Shown here in pieces: positions 42,278-57,400 of a stretch of DNA of 64,000 bases. The translations under genes were made by a program, and so were the position numbers. The DNA is from Biomaibacter acetigenes (GTDB lineage Bacteria > Bacillota > Thermosediminibacteria > Thermosediminibacterales > Tepidanaerobacteraceae): assembly GCF_003691585.1 (NCBI RefSeq), contig NZ_CP033169.1, positions 2,604,001 through 2,668,000 on the forward strand, read 5' to 3'. Each line of letters starts with the position of its first letter. The first letter of the stretch is position 1. The notes beneath the pieces were generated by a model. That model was not told the origin of the DNA and ran no database searches. It saw only the letters and a list, made by a program, of their open reading frames with translations.

Positions 42278-42356
42278 ATGAGTCAGAGAACCGTCCCCTG
42301 TCTCAGAAGTTCGGGCCGCATGAGGCCATGAGTCAAAGAACCGTCCCTTGACTCAT
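42278..42356. repeat. REP-like palindrome, copy 4 (two units)
   Basis: Two minus-sense units, TGAGTCAGAGAACCGTCCCC and TGAGTCAAAGAACCGTCCCT, are each followed by a TCTCA or GACTCA end. They lie just upstream of the SLH-protein gene. Confidence 0.88.
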
Positions 42357-42395
42357 AAATACTTAATTATAATCGTAAAGGGAGGCATTTTTGCA

Positions 42396-44579
42396 ATGAA
42401 GAGGCTAAGATACTTAACAGCGCTGGCATTGAGTATTGTTTTTACCATTTCGGTTTTTATCCCCGGCGCTTACGCCCAGGGGAATGCCGCCTTTTCTCAG
42501 GAAAAGGCCATCGAAAAGATAAAGAGTATGTTTGACACCAGTGGTTATGACAAATTCAACATTAATTACAACGAGGATAAAATCCGCAAGACCTGGAACC
42601 TCAACTGGTCGAACACCAAAGAACCTTACGGTAGCCTGTATGCCACCGTGGATGCCGATACGGGTAATATTCTGAACCTCAGTATGTACGCTGGATATGA
42701 CCCCGAGCAGAAACCTTCCCTTATACCGAAGGTTTCCGAAGAGGAGGCCAGGAAGATTGCCGAAGAATTTGCCAGAAAGCACCAGCCCGATGAATTTGCC
42801 CAGACCGTATATCGGGAGCGCCAGGAACCTGTATATAAACCCGTGAAGACGGTCCGCTACCAGCAGGATTATTATTTCAATTTCGTAAGGGTCATCAAGA
42901 ATATACCTGTAGAGGGCGACGGGTTTAATATCAATGTTGACGCCGGCACCGGCGAGGTACGCAGCTACAGCTTCAACTGGTCCTATGAAGAGATGCCGTC
43001 GGCCGAAAAGATTATTTCCCTGAAAGATGCCGAAAAGATATTTAAAGAAAAAGTGGGATTGAAGCTGGCCTACCAGAGATATTTTGACTATATGACCAAA
43101 AAAGACGATGTAAAGCTGGTTTATACAATAGATGGCCCTTACAGGGTGCTCATCGATGCTATTACAGGTGAATTTTTAAATGATGCCAATTACGATTATC
43201 CGTATTACGACGGCTACGGTGGCGGCGGGGAGGCTCAGAAGGCGATGAATGCTGAGCTCACACCGCAGGAGTTAAAGGAGGTGGAAGCCACCAGGAACTG
43301 CATTACCAAGGAAGCTGCGTTGAAGGTGGTGCAAAAGTATCTAACCATCCCCGAGGGTTATGAGCAGAGTTACGCCAACCTGTATGAGGATTATGACAAC
43401 CCCCAGCAAAGAGTATGGAACATAAGCTGGAGCAAAAAGACAGATACCCCAGGCGATTACGGGTCCATAAACGCCCGGGTAAATGCGGTAACCTCGGAAT
43501 TGCTCAGCTTCAATATCTGGGATGACAGCCGCTACAACAGGGATTTCACCCAGAAGTACGACAGAGCGGCAGCCCAAAAGATTGCGGAAGATTTCCTGAA
43601 GAAGCTCCAGCCGGAAAAAGCCGGCAGCGTGAAGCTGGAGGAGATAAAGGGTGAAATCAAGTACCCCGAAAAAATCCGGGACCATTATTTCAACTTTACC
43701 AGGCTGGTGAATGGTATACCGTATCTGGCCAACGGATTTTCCATCACCGTGGACTCCTCCACCGGCAAGGTCCTGGGGTATAACATGAGGTGGCAGGATA
43801 GGGAATTCCCCAAGGTCGACGGGGTGCTGTCAAGGGATGAGGCCGAGGCTCGCTTCCTGAAAGACATAGGCCTTGAGCTTTCCTATACCAGAGTATACCG
43901 GCCGCAGCAGGAAGAAAGCAAGTTCTATCTGGTTTATAAGCTCAAACCTTCAAGCTCCTACACCTTTGATGCTTTTGACTTCAAACCTCTGGACTATCGG
44001 GGTAAGCCCATAGAAAAGCAGCCCGAGACGGCCTTCACCGATATCAAGGGACACTGGGCGGAAAAGGATATACAGCTTCTGGTGGATATGGGAGTAATCG
44101 AGTCAAAGGAAGATAAGTTCCGCCCCGATGAGAATATAAATCAGGGCGATTTCATAAAGCTTTTGATGATAGCCACAGGCCGCGGCCCGATAAATGATGA
44201 GGTGGCTTTGAAATATGGTATAGAGGCCGGCAAAGATTCCGGGGATGACATACAGAAATATATCGATGCGGCCATCAAGGCGGGCATTGTGAAGCAGGGT
44301 GAAGTTGATGCTCAAAAGCCCCTGCCCAGGGAAAAAATGGCGGCCTTTCTGGTGAGGTCTCTGGGATTTGAGAAAGTGGCATCCATCACCGGCATTTACA
44401 CTGTTCCCGCAAAGGATGCCGCCGGCATATCCCCAGCCTATAAGGGCCATGCGGCCGTAGCCATGGGTCTTTCGCTTATCACCGGCATCGACGGCAGGTT
44501 TGAGCCCCGGGGCAGCGTCACCCGCGCCCAGGCGGCGGTAGTGCTGGTGAGGATGCTGAAGCTGCAGGCAGAAAAGTAG
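42396..44579 (+). CDS. Secreted YcdB/YcdC-type repeat protein with SLH domains
   Basis: A 727-residue protein. A signal peptide (MKRLRYLTALALSIVFTISV, cleavage near GAYAQ) is followed by four repeating units that alternate KIRKTWNLNWSN-like and HYFNFTRLVNGIPYLANGF-like segments, the YcdB/YcdC (PepSY-related) layout. The C-terminal ~170 residues are S-layer homology domains (DIKGHWAEKDIQLLVDMGVI, FRPDENINQGDFIKLL, FEPRGSVTRAQAAVVLVRML) that anchor it to cell-wall polymer. ATG 42396 lies after AAGGGAGG. Probably a surface protein inhibiting or processing peptidases; function unproven. Confidence 0.87.
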   Translation: MKRLRYLTALALSIVFTISVFIPGAYAQGNAAFSQEKAIEKIKSMFDTSGYDKFNINYNEDKIRKTWNLNWSNTKEPYGSLYATVDADTGNILNLSMYAGYDPEQKPSLIPKVSEEEARKIAEEFARKHQPDEFAQTVYRERQEPVYKPVKTVRYQQDYYFNFVRVIKNIPVEGDGFNINVDAGTGEVRSYSFNWSYEEMPSAEKIISLKDAEKIFKEKVGLKLAYQRYFDYMTKKDDVKLVYTIDGPYRVLIDAITGEFLNDANYDYPYYDGYGGGGEAQKAMNAELTPQELKEVEATRNCITKEAALKVVQKYLTIPEGYEQSYANLYEDYDNPQQRVWNISWSKKTDTPGDYGSINARVNAVTSELLSFNIWDDSRYNRDFTQKYDRAAAQKIAEDFLKKLQPEKAGSVKLEEIKGEIKYPEKIRDHYFNFTRLVNGIPYLANGFSITVDSSTGKVLGYNMRWQDREFPKVDGVLSRDEAEARFLKDIGLELSYTRVYRPQQEESKFYLVYKLKPSSSYTFDAFDFKPLDYRGKPIEKQPETAFTDIKGHWAEKDIQLLVDMGVIESKEDKFRPDENINQGDFIKLLMIATGRGPINDEVALKYGIEAGKDSGDDIQKYIDAAIKAGIVKQGEVDAQKPLPREKMAAFLVRSLGFEKVASITGIYTVPAKDAAGISPAYKGHAAVAMGLSLITGIDGRFEPRGSVTRAQAAVVLVRMLKLQAEK

Positions 44580-44597: not shown

Positions 44598-44637
44598 ACG
44601 GGAAACGCGAGGCCTGGCCCGGCGTTTCCCCGTTTTT
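44598..44637 (+). terminator. Intrinsic terminator
   Basis: GGGAAACGC...GCGTTTCCC followed by CGTTTTTATTTC ends the SLH-protein transcript; the next gene converges on it. Confidence 0.85.
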
Positions 44638-46369
44638 ATTTCTTGATTATTACTCCCTTCATGTGATCCCCATCCAGAAATACATCGAACTTGCCTTCAT
44701 AGACCCATACGGCTTTATGGCCGGTGGCCTTTCTGGGAGCGTTTTTGAACCAGTCAAAATTTATGATGTTGGTCTCAAGGTTATCGAAGACCGGCATGTA
44801 TAGGATGCCGTCCACGTCCAGGTCCGCAAAAAAGTGGGTGCCGTAGGAGAGCTCCGGGGTGAAGTTTTTGCGCTGGATGCCCACTTCCACCAGCATGCCG
44901 CAGTTGGCAATCTCGTTGTATCCCACCGGAACTCCCAGGGCCGGGTTGCTGGAGCCCCATCGGCCAGGGCCTACCAGTATGTATTTTTCCCCTGCCAGAA
45001 CATCGTTTACCTTTCCCACTTCTCTGGCGATGGCGTATTTGTCGGGGCTTGCGTAAAACTCGTCATGGTCCACATACACCAGGTATTTTATACCTCTCAG
45101 CATACCGTTGGTGAGCATGTGGTCACCCGAAAGGATGATATCCTCGGTCTTTATGTCATCGGGTATCTTTATTTTTCTGTATTCCTCCCAGCTTGACAGG
45201 GGCCGCACCTGAAGCAGCGCAAACCTTGGGTCTTCAGGCTCGTAGGCCCATTCCACATCCACCGCTATGCCCATGGCATCTTCCAGCACTTCAAAGAGAT
45301 ATTTCATGAGCTTGAAAAACCGCGGCCTATATGACGGAAATCTGTCAAATGTGAATATGAGCTTTTCTCCCGGGCCGGGTTCGGGGAACACAGGTGAAAG
45401 GTCTTTTATCATATTTTCTGCTGACGAATATAGGGATGCAAGACGGAAGAAATTTTCATGGTATTTTATGATATCCAGCCTGTCATTTATGTTGTAGGAT
45501 TCCAGCTGCCCCGTTTCCATGTTGAGCATGTCAAAGGTCTCCTGGGAATACTTGGCGATCTCCTGGGCATTATTGCCTTCGGGCCTCAAGTTTAGATTTG
45601 TGAGGGAGAAGGTCCTGGCATAGCCTCTGGAAGTGCTCTTGGTGCCGAGGCCGAAGACCACCCGGACTACGCCGTCTTCTTTTCTTATCCTCTCGGTGAA
45701 ACGGCGGTAGTTTTCGGAAAATCCCACTCCCGCCACTTCGGGGTAAAAACCGCTGCCCCGCCTTTTTCCGAAAAGCTCCTGGATAATCACCGCCATTCTT
45801 TCTTCGGAAAGGGCGTGCTTTCTCCTGTATACTACGGCGTTTTTGCCGTAGGTGCTGGCATATATTTGCTTTATAGCTGAGATGAGCTGGGAGAGCCTTT
45901 CTTCCATAGTGCCGGTGTTGGGTATAAAGGTGGTGAAGTATTTTCCGGCAAAGGAGAAACGCACGCTGTCTTCCAGCATGGAAGAGGACCTTATGGCCAG
46001 GGGACATGTAAGTTCACGGAGGACAGTTTCAAACTGCTCCTGGGCCTCCTCGGAAAATTCCCCGTCGAAGATGGCCTGACGGATTCTATCAATATCATTG
46101 GGAGATTCTTCGATTATGAGGTCTATCTCATTTTGCGCAAGATAATCGTCATACATACTGGAGGCGATGAAATAACTCTCGGGAATGACCACATTTTTTA
46201 GAATCTCATCATCTTTTTGTTTTAGTATCATGCTGGAGTAGAGCAATCCTTTAGCCTTTCCGCCTATGCTTCCGCTACCGATGGTCCTTTTCCGGAATTC
46301 CGGGAATTTCAGGGGGTCAAAGGCTATGTATTCCTTGATTTTATCGTTCCACTCGGCCAAGAGTACCAC
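44636..46369 (-). CDS. PEP/pyruvate-binding domain protein (PPDK N-terminus-like)
   Basis: A 577-residue protein with the ATP-grasp pyruvate phosphate dikinase/PEP synthase N-terminal domain: GSIGGKAKGLLYSSMIL, CPLAIRSSSMLEDSVRFSFA, GKYFTTFIPN and LLQVRPLSSWEEY. It lacks the central phosphohistidine and C-terminal PEP-binding domains of a full dikinase and ends with a distinct ~190-residue domain (LVGPGRWGSSNPALGVPVGY). The catalytic role is unknown; it may be a phosphotransfer or regulatory relative. Confidence 0.82.
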   Translation of the reverse strand: MVLLAEWNDKIKEYIAFDPLKFPEFRKRTIGSGSIGGKAKGLLYSSMILKQKDDEILKNVVIPESYFIASSMYDDYLAQNEIDLIIEESPNDIDRIRQAIFDGEFSEEAQEQFETVLRELTCPLAIRSSSMLEDSVRFSFAGKYFTTFIPNTGTMEERLSQLISAIKQIYASTYGKNAVVYRRKHALSEERMAVIIQELFGKRRGSGFYPEVAGVGFSENYRRFTERIRKEDGVVRVVFGLGTKSTSRGYARTFSLTNLNLRPEGNNAQEIAKYSQETFDMLNMETGQLESYNINDRLDIIKYHENFFRLASLYSSAENMIKDLSPVFPEPGPGEKLIFTFDRFPSYRPRFFKLMKYLFEVLEDAMGIAVDVEWAYEPEDPRFALLQVRPLSSWEEYRKIKIPDDIKTEDIILSGDHMLTNGMLRGIKYLVYVDHDEFYASPDKYAIAREVGKVNDVLAGEKYILVGPGRWGSSNPALGVPVGYNEIANCGMLVEVGIQRKNFTPELSYGTHFFADLDVDGILYMPVFDNLETNIINFDWFKNAPRKATGHKAVWVYEGKFDVFLDGDHMKGVIIKK

Positions 46370-46639
46370 CTTCGCTTATGTTATTTGGGAGGCGTGAAGT
46401 CATAAGTGTGGTTTAGCCGCTACGCCTCCTCTGATAAATGATGGATAGTCATATAATATTATATCACCATAAATTAAAATTTAAATTAACTTGATAGATT
46501 TTTTCATCAGCAGGTAATCAACTTTCAACGAAGTATGTGACGGCTGCCGTCAGGAGTACTTTTTGCACCGCAATTAACTTTTTAAATATAAAAAACTTGT
46601 ATATTTTAAAATCAACAGGGGCAATATAAATAACGAGGG

Positions 46640-47061
46640 TTCGCAGTGGCCGAGCCAAGACTGCCGGAGGATCCTTCATCCGGGTTTTCCGGCAGTCGGC
46701 CAAAGGTCGGTACCGGGTCTTGAGGCTCGGTACCGGCCGGCGGGCAGAGTGCTATGCGTCTTGTAAGGCTTCGTGGCAGCCCGAACTGTTGTCACGGGGT
46801 CAAAAAAGAGGCGTAGCATTCGAGCTAAGATCATCCTGGGTTCCGCAGATTTTACAATATGGAGTATTTTTATAATACTTATATTGTAATAATTGGAGGT
46901 CTGCGGCAGTCGAGAGATTGCCGCAGGTTTCTAAGGTACTCAGGATGGTCGAGCACAGGTTGCTGTGAGTTCCGTAATGGTCTATTGCAGCCGAAAGGTT
47001 GCAGTGGGCTATGCAGGGATTCATGGCAGCTGCAGCGCAGGTCACTGCGGGCTCTTTTTTT
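46640..47061 (+). ncRNA. Candidate large structured RNA
   Basis: The region is packed with inverted repeats: GACTGCCGGA/TCCGGCAGTC (46659-46697), an 11-bp stem around GGTCGGTACCG (46707-46739), TTACAATAT/ATATTGTAA (46851-46890) and CTGCGGCA/TGCCGCAG (46901-46926). It then has three ~41-nt imperfect units each with a YCGAR...GRTTGC motif. It ends in CGCAG-GTCA-CTGCG and seven T. No protein family fits on either strand. The gap 46370-46640 is AT-rich with no gene and may hold its promoter. Confidence 0.5.
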
Positions 47062-47064
47062 ATA

Positions 47065-47087
47065 AAAAAGCCGGGGATTACCCCCGG
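47065..47087 (-). terminator. Intrinsic terminator of the dehydrogenase operon
   Basis: On the minus strand CCGGGGG-TAAT-CCCCGG is followed by CTTTTTTATA, downstream of the last operon gene. Confidence 0.85.
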
Positions 47088-47134: not shown

Positions 47135-48280
47135 CTACACTACTGACGGTTCGAATATGAGTTCTCCTCTCTTGAATCTTCCCACATCCAGCTTGTCGAT
47201 GGGCAGGGTGGTGGGGAGGCCCAGGATGTATTCGGCCATGAGCTGTCCGGTGATGGGGCCGAACATGAAGCCGTGGCCGGAAAATCCGGTGGCAAGGTAA
47301 ACTCCTTCCACTTCTTCGGCCTTGCCCAGGATGGGCTGGGCATCCGGAGACATCTCGTAAAGGCCTGCCCACTGGCGCACTACGCGCACATTTTTCATGT
47401 AGGGCAGATAGCGAGTGGCCTTCCTGCACATGGTCTCCACGAAATCCCAGGTGGATGAAATGTTATAAGTCTCATGCTCCGCCGGGCCGAAGCCCATGAT
47501 GAATTCTCCTCCGGGCTCCTGCTGCAGGTAGATATTTCCGGCAAAGGACATGAGCATGGGGCCCAGGATGGGATTTACGGGTTCGGTCACCAGAATCTGG
47601 TGGCGCTCGGGCCTTACCGGCACGTCACAGCCCGCCAGTTCGCCCACGTGTTTGGACCAGGCTCCGGCGGCTATGACTATCTTGTCGGTGGAGATATAGC
47701 CTTTATTTGTCTGAACACCTTTTACCCGGCCTTCCACTACATCAATGCCGGTAGCTTCGGTATAGGTGTATATTTCTGCTCCATGCCTTCTGGCGGCTTC
47801 GGCGTAGGCCTGCATGGTCTTAAAGGGATTGGCGTGGCCGTCTTTATGGCAGAAGGTGCAGGCCAGGATTCCTTCTATGTTTAGTTCAGGAACGATGTCC
47901 AGAGCTTCCCGGGGGGTCAACATCACCGAGGGTATCCCCATGCTGTGTTGAAGCTCGATGTTTTTCTTGAACTGTTCCACTTCTTTTTCGGTGATGGCCA
48001 TCATCAGGTATCCGCCCTGCTTGAATTCGATATCATCCTCAAAGTCCAGGATTTCATTGAGGTTCTCGAATATCTCGCAGGTGGCTTTGCCGAGGGCGCA
48101 GTTCATCTCGGTACCCCACTGTTGCCTTACTCCCGCCCCGCAGCGCCCGGTGGAGCCGCTGAACAGGTAACTTTTTTCAAGGACTACGACATCTCTCATG
48201 CCCATGGATGCCAGATTAAAGGCTATCGACAGGCCGGAGATCCCGCCGCCTATTATAACCACCTCAGCTGTTTTCTTCAT
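47135..48280 (-). CDS. FAD-dependent amine/imino-acid oxidoreductase (DAO family, HcnC/SoxB-like)
   Basis: A 381-residue protein with the FAD-binding VVIIGGGISGLSIAFNLASM, the sarcosine-oxidase-like GSTGRCGAGVRQQWGT and the C-terminal VYLATGFSGHGFMFGPITGQ. It is the substrate-oxidising subunit of a multi-subunit dye-linked dehydrogenase, similar in layout to glycine oxidase/HcnC and proline or opine dehydrogenase beta subunits. It overlaps the BFD-like gene by 17 bases. The substrate (proline, sarcosine, opine or a D-amino acid) cannot be told. Confidence 0.85.
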   Translation of the reverse strand: MKKTAEVVIIGGGISGLSIAFNLASMGMRDVVVLEKSYLFSGSTGRCGAGVRQQWGTEMNCALGKATCEIFENLNEILDFEDDIEFKQGGYLMMAITEKEVEQFKKNIELQHSMGIPSVMLTPREALDIVPELNIEGILACTFCHKDGHANPFKTMQAYAEAARRHGAEIYTYTEATGIDVVEGRVKGVQTNKGYISTDKIVIAAGAWSKHVGELAGCDVPVRPERHQILVTEPVNPILGPMLMSFAGNIYLQQEPGGEFIMGFGPAEHETYNISSTWDFVETMCRKATRYLPYMKNVRVVRQWAGLYEMSPDAQPILGKAEEVEGVYLATGFSGHGFMFGPITGQLMAEYILGLPTTLPIDKLDVGRFKRGELIFEPSVV

Positions 48281-57226: not shown

Positions 57227-57249
57227 CAATAAAATCAACAATAATACAC

Positions 57250-57366
57250 CTTCTTTCATCCAGACTTTACTGTCGGCTCCGGCTTATACCGGATCGGCTC
57301 CCTGAGGGAGTTCGCGGGCTCGCCTTTTGGCTTACCGCCGGTCGGGAATTTCACCCTGCCCTGAAG
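57250..57366 (-). promoter_or_regulatory. FMN riboswitch (RFN element)
   Basis: The minus strand shows the conserved RFN blocks GGGCAGGGTGAAATTCCCGA, CCGGCGGTAAGCC, AGCCCGCGA, GATCCGGT, GGAGCCGACAGT and AGTCTGGATGAAAGAAGG in order. FMN binding would fold the downstream terminator and switch off ribU. Confidence 0.95.
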
Positions 57367-57400
57367 GTTTTAAAAATGGATTATGTATTCACTTAAGTTA

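Follow-up and report, generated by a model that had tools for sequence, protein, structure and literature searches.

A large structured RNA of spore-forming Bacillota with a common wobble register and a putative forespore promoter

OLE, ROOL and GOLLD form multimers that consist of RNA only, and in the case of ROOL and GOLLD these multimers are cages (PMC12286853). A structured RNA of the forespore has been described in Bacillus velezensis, where Bvs196 (known from B. subtilis as the S357/S547 fragment) is a 294-nt sRNA equipped with a sigma-F/sigma-G promoter and a terminator (PMC9147052). Its loss lowers the resistance of spores to heat and UV (PMC9147052), so that structured RNAs made in the forespore can evidently be of importance to the spore. 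Here we analyze a locus of Biomaibacter acetigenes that lies within a 64,000-nt stretch of contig NZ_CP033169.1, referred to as the window, and that encodes an RNA of the same broad kind as OLE, ROOL and GOLLD, that is, a large structured bacterial RNA of unknown function. Our best explanation, to which we assign a probability of roughly 0.55, is that this is a trans-acting architectural RNA of the forespore, which would present equal minor-groove faces and form a compact particle serving the spore.

The RNA is about 420 nt long and occupies positions 46636-47061 of the window on the plus strand, from its closing stem P1 to a T-tract, as delineated by its fold, by 149 consensus pairs and by homologues of the same extent. 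A sequence-only reading of the window had proposed, at 46640-47061, a large and structured RNA that consists of repeated units and lies outside the known classes. Covariation, wide homologues and the lack of an Rfam match uphold this proposal; of the extent, the end at 47061 stands and the start moves about 4 nt upstream, to 46636. The successive stable hairpins that had been noticed are reflected in a fold of -258 kcal/mol for the 437-nt segment 46632-47068 on the plus strand (z = -19.6, equalled in stability by 0 of 100 shuffles); for the opposite strand, z is -6.4. At the 3' end, the P1 strand runs into seven T residues (47055-47061, plus), which also gave a terminator-like match in our scan and agree with the intrinsic terminator read from the sequence. 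A small local hairpin at 47036-47049 likewise matches the terminator pattern. The gene is flanked by two minus-strand genes, one with a PPDK_N domain (44636-46369) and one for a DAO-family oxidoreductase (47135-48280), the latter being convergent with the RNA. The gap between them had been described as lacking a convincing gene, and indeed the overlapping frames are short or antisense; as the homologues show compensatory base-pair changes and loop indels instead, we rejected a coding sequence. On the minus strand, a terminator-like hairpin 3' of the DAO gene (47071-47087) faces the RNA's own end. Further away, positions 42348-44579 (plus) encode a DUF4901 (YcdB/YcdC repeat) protein with PepSY/YPEB-like and S-layer homology domains, homologues of which precede the RNA, in the same orientation, at 11 loci.

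RNAalifold analysis of 21 full-length homologues yielded 149 consensus pairs, and the covariance check proposed beforehand returned compensatory, both-side changes in 77 of them. For the part comprising D2 and E, represented by 59 sequences, 97.9% are standard pairs, and the covariation amounts to 0.58, as compared to 0.28 for shuffled and at most 0.18 for slid structures. These data establish the helices of the RNA: the closing stem P1 and arms A to E surround a junction, and the minimum-energy folds of most very distant members follow the same P1-plus-arms plan. We infer that nine helical segments of ~16 bp are thereby arranged around a six-way junction. P1 pairs 46636-46651 with 47040-47055 (16 bp, covarying, both strands on plus) and carries G.U at 46638 and 46649 and U.G at 46640, in 96-99% of 85 sequences. 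Hairpin A (46659-46697, plus; 46659-46674 with 46682-46697) and hairpin B (46705-46738, plus; 46705-46719 with 46724-46738) are both backed by covariation, A having G.U at 46670 (98%) and U.G at 46672 (93%), and B having U.G at 46707 and 46718 and G.U at 46716 (95-96%). Arms C and E each consist of two helices stacked on one another, with a symmetric internal loop (4x4) in between. In arm C (46747-46821, plus), the covarying outer helix joins 46747-46762 to 46806-46821, which accounts for the long-range complementarity of GTGCTATGCGTC and GGCGTAGCAT seen in the sequence-only reading; the inner helix pairs 46767-46781 with 46787-46801, likewise with covariation, and shows U.G at 46770 and a wobble at 46768, each in 85 of 85 sequences. 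The covarying outer helix of arm D (46829-46950, plus; 46829-46844 with 46935-46950) encloses D1 and D2. According to the alignment, D1 (46850-46894, plus) is a hairpin of variable length, extended in the closest relatives and almost missing in others. D2 (46896-46931, plus) is paired in 98.9% of cells over 59 sequences, with G.U at 46898 in 85 of 85 and U.G at 46900 in 84 of 85. Arm E (46958-47031, plus) is composed of an outer helix (46958-46973 with 47016-47031) and an inner helix (46978-46992 with 46997-47011), with 97% of cells paired and with G.U at 46979, G-C at 46980 and U.G at 46981, each in 85 of 85. GNRA loops close D2 (GAGA) and the inner helix of E (GAAA).

Short linkers connect the helices. 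The linker GAGCCAA (46652-46658, plus) is a repeated and highly conserved junction sequence, and similar linkers are GGCCAAA (46698-46704), GAGCTAA (46822-46828) and GAGCACA (46951-46957), all variations on the theme [C]GAGCNAA[G]. Between linkers, extra basal stems of 2-3 bp, which hardly vary, probably form at the foot of P1, B and D. Their presence on P1, B and D and their absence from A, C and E suggest a pseudo-three-fold symmetry of the junction. Mutual information revealed one clear extra covarying pair, 46764-46803, within arm C, and detected no pseudoknots, loop-loop (kissing) contacts or intermolecular covariation. A pair of mutually exclusive pairings had also been put forward, in which CCGCAGA would join TCTGCGG. 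Although present in the window, this alternative is not conserved, as only 60% of its cells pair and all 7 pairs occur in 9 of 85 sequences, compared to 98% for the D2 pairing; a bistable switch was rejected for this reason.

Most terminal loops are variable, and the conserved bases are nearly all paired or located in short linkers, with AAA and GUAA being the only conserved unpaired runs of three or more. These minimal runs argue against both an antisense seed and a catalytic core. A ribozyme or ligand-binding RNA might be considered given the large size and strong conservation, an argument made likewise for OLE RNA in the literature (PMC11332333), but a conserved unpaired core of notable size is missing, as is a conserved downstream gene to control, leaving such a function highly improbable. 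Over 91 loci, no conserved gene follows on the same strand, so that a riboswitch or mRNA leader was discarded as well. More generally, no neighbouring gene cluster is common to more than 13 of the 91 loci and the orientation is free, and on these grounds we regard the RNA as stand-alone and trans-acting.

The most distinctive property of the RNA concerns its wobble pairs. Three units of ~41 nt had been recognized in the sequence; they are real but give an incomplete picture, since all nine ~16-bp helices share one common register, and the model built on D2+E recognizes B+C within the same RNA as well (E = 1e-7). In this register, the pair at position 3 is either G.U or an invariant G-C and that at position 5 is mostly U.G; all nine helices have G.U at position 14 (71-98% wobble), and at position 16 they have U.G or C-G. 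The wobble motifs are 11 bp apart in 9 of 9 helices, a spacing that is one turn of A-form RNA, and the eight pairs between them vary freely, with compensation. Each strand reads approximately 5'-GNU-N8-GNY-3', making the helices nearly dyad-symmetric. In 85 of 85 sequences, the wobble is never replaced at 46898-46929 and 46979-47010 (G.U) and at 46770-46798 and 46981-47008 (U.G). When 52 non-redundant members were folded individually by minimum energy, without an alignment, a G.U followed by a G.U at 11 bp occurred 177 times (32 expected), a U.G followed by a G.U at 9 bp 273 times (44 expected) and a G.U followed by a U.G at 2 bp 334 times (92 expected). Because the individual folds exhibit the same spacings, the register is no alignment artefact. 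In a set of 20 OLE RNAs from the same phylum, the first two spacings were not enriched (0 vs 2.5 expected for G.U to G.U at 11 bp, 1 vs 5.1 for U.G to G.U at 9 bp). The same OLE RNAs (L182-L201) do contain an excess of G.U to U.G at 2 bp and of U.G to G.U at 8 bp (32 vs 6.5 expected), and OLE RNA may thus have another wobble spacing of its own.

In G.U pairs, the amino group of guanine is exposed in the minor groove, which is a common recognition feature. We know of no natural RNA in which a wobble code of one-turn period provides docking faces. We tentatively hypothesize from the sequence pattern that the RNA is architectural and would offer nine equivalent faces to a single type of partner, either a protein or RNA helices. 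The idea of docking comes from the wobble pattern, and that of an architectural role from the conservation residing on helix faces and linkers. One special case of our best explanation is an assembly made of RNA only, in which the wobble faces would pack helix on helix and yield a homo-oligomer or cage without protein. Regular helix lengths, the one-turn spacing and the two conserved GNRA loops would suit such an assembly, for which the multimers of OLE, ROOL and GOLLD set a precedent (PMC12286853). We nevertheless consider it unlikely, given that most terminal loops vary and no kissing-loop covariation was found, and that the known cages employ kissing loops and A-minor contacts, with wobble faces going unmentioned (PMC12286853).

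We aligned the sequences upstream of the RNA 5' ends and observed a GNATA-like box followed, after ~15 nt, by GG and A.A.TA, ending ~8-10 nt before the GGU of P1. GNATA and GG...A.A.TA make up the consensus of the forespore factor sigma-F known from B. subtilis, which is close to that of sigma-G. In the window, the -35-like box of this forespore sigma-F/G-type promoter is GTATA (46599-46603, plus), a GNATA-like box being kept at that spacing from the RNA start in the non-redundant members, and the -10-like box is GGGCAATATA (46619-46628, plus), which has one mismatch to the sigma-F consensus GGNNANAHTR, GG...A.A.TA being conserved among the members. A relaxed sigma-F pattern was present in 36 of 62 non-redundant members, as compared to a mean of 1.0 and a maximum of 4 in shuffles, and a strict pattern in 20 of 62 (0.1 in shuffles). 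Sigma-A sites in the same 62 members remained at shuffle level (15 vs 15.3). Distant loci carried a sigma-F-type site in 11 of 18 cases (0.4 expected), the 5' ends being doubtful in three of the 18 (L142, L151, L152), and some members do not have a clear sigma-F match. The sigma-F/sigma-G promoter by which forespore RNAs are recognized is thus present at the level of the consensus. As judged from these promoter sequences, transcription of the RNA very probably takes place in the forespore, through sigma-F and/or sigma-G polymerase. Such a promoter would also befit a forespore regulatory RNA that base-pairs with mRNAs, as proposed for CsfG or Bvs196, and a regulatory role is presumed for small RNAs of the Bacillus forespore (PMC9147052). 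However, with its conserved bases paired or in short linkers and its loops variable, the RNA offers no conserved seed, which makes regulation by mRNA pairing improbable.

To what extent the RNA follows spore formation can be seen from its distribution. Of 101 related genomes searched at the DNA level, 37 contained matches, some of them belonging to other families and classes of the phylum. Scanning named genomes with a pattern yielded at least 80 stretches, at least one of which (L096) does not contain the RNA; they derive from Tepidanaerobacter, Thermosediminibacter, Fervidicola, Thermovorax, Moorella, Pelotomaculum, Desulfotomaculum relatives, Carboxydocella, Desulfovirgula and many metagenome bins. 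A covariance model (R1) was built from D2+E and located the RNA in at least 165 (~40%) of 398 genomes sampled across the phylum, in a search that scored few candidates per genome; after a more thorough search of 40 negative genomes, 38 were still negative and 2 marginal (E ~0.006-0.009). The distribution is patchy but widespread. Some genomes contain two or more copies, and at three loci (L031, L053, L060) pairs ~0.5-2.6 kb apart and in the same orientation suggest local duplication. A sigma-F family model divided the genomes into those with a best E below 1e-76, in which spore sigma factors are present, and those with a best E above 1e-56. The RNA occurs in 164 of 340 genomes having spore sigma factors and in 1 of 58 lacking them (Fisher p = 1e-13, a figure inflated by shared ancestry). 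Spore sigma factors therefore accompany the RNA in 164 of 165 carriers, the exception being a bin that is 61% complete. Within one family (f15), the 3 carriers are spore-formers and the 2 members without spore sigma factors are also without the RNA. In one genome (G372, locus L150), the RNA is present though sigF scores like the Bacillus type; none of the other such genomes examined has it.

Because roughly one half of the genomes that have spore sigma factors do not carry the RNA, it must be dispensable for sporulation in general. In the window's genome, a sigF-like gene (L178, G000:C1:1715707-1716372) is interrupted by an in-frame TGA and the RNA is intact; the sigG-like gene (G000:C1:1391034-1391714) is uninterrupted, as is sigF of two relatives. 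The stop may reflect a recent loss of sporulation or a sequencing error. Both the RNA-free half and the interrupted sigF frame beside an intact RNA would be in line with a housekeeping RNA of growing cells, whose sigma-F likeness would be a chance effect of AT-rich sequence and whose sporulation link would come from shared ancestry. Against this, sigma-A stays at shuffle level with sigma-F far above, and the split in family f15 runs along the presence of spore sigma factors, and we rate a housekeeping role as quite improbable. The sequence-only reading was right on the structured RNA, but the wobble register, the sigma-F-like promoter and the link with sporulation had escaped it.

Returning to the architectural forespore RNA that we favor, its mechanism could be as follows. 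Sigma-F and/or sigma-G polymerase would transcribe the RNA in the forespore, where it would fold into a six-way junction with nine segments of ~16 bp, each bearing the same nearly dyad-symmetric wobble pattern. Being one A-form turn apart, the wobbles would lie on one side of each helix and create equal minor-groove faces. Docking partners of these faces may be either multiple copies of a single protein or further helices within the RNA, and a compact particle with a function in spore formation or spore resistance would result. SASP proteins, which bind A-like DNA in the minor groove, were considered as the partner and set aside for lack of support. If the RNA is made in the forespore, it would constitute an RNA component of spore development outside Bacillus, and if the wobble faces dock as proposed, they would represent a new structural principle with a role in spore resistance or dormancy. 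The faces provide a testable prediction, namely that RNA helices can be recognized or packed at one-turn intervals. The full picture of a new RNA class of endospore-formers, acting as a forespore particle with same-register helices, a pseudo-three-fold six-way junction and docking through a one-turn wobble code, is possible but more speculative.

Rfam 15 covariance models at the gathering score matched no family to the RNA, either in the window or at 28 homologous loci, which rules out a known RNA class; the sole Rfam match within the window is an FMN riboswitch at 57244-57372 (minus, 111.7 bits). Homologues in many families and the missing Rfam match were among the points on which the earlier candidate had been made to depend, and both came out in its favor. 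The open-access literature searched contains no description of the RNA. Within this literature and Rfam 15, the RNA appears to be new both as a class and in its helix code. Rfam thus lacks a large, strongly conserved RNA that ~40% of the genomes sampled from the phylum carry, Moorella, Pelotomaculum and Desulfotomaculum relatives among them.

Among the described systems, OLE RNA (RF01071) is similar in that it, too, is large and structured and occurs in anaerobic and extremophilic Bacillota. The OLE RNA of the window's genome lies at G000:C1:1736200-1736817, and RF01071 has no match in the window. OLE differs in its length of ~615 nt and in sequence and structure, is unmatched to our RNA and lacks the 11-bp wobble spacing; nor do the distributions coincide, OLE being wider (284 vs 165 of 398 genomes). 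ROOL and GOLLD share with our RNA the size, the unknown role and a regular architecture. They differ in that conservation in our RNA sits on helix faces and not on loop contacts and that no Rfam family matches it. In further distinction from ROOL and GOLLD, it found no match in phage, plasmid and viral collections, and we dismissed an origin from such elements. CsfG, a forespore sRNA of endospore-formers, is set apart by its smaller size. Bvs196 differs in its 294 nt, its restriction to Bacillus and its fixed site between hinT and ecsA. Even with filters off, the R1 model reached a best E of 0.16 over the hit-ecsA region of Bacillus-like genomes, in which Bvs196 was placed by position only, and thus detected no homology. 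Upstream of ecsA, on the strand opposite to it, four of these loci (L162, L163, L165, L167) contain repeated AAATGAGGTGTNTGTYAAAGAC units that are faintly like the linker-plus-GRY units of our RNA, the R1 match not being significant. In its general design, Bvs196 nonetheless resembles the RNA described here, both being stand-alone and strongly structured, with conserved stems and variable loops (PMC9147052).
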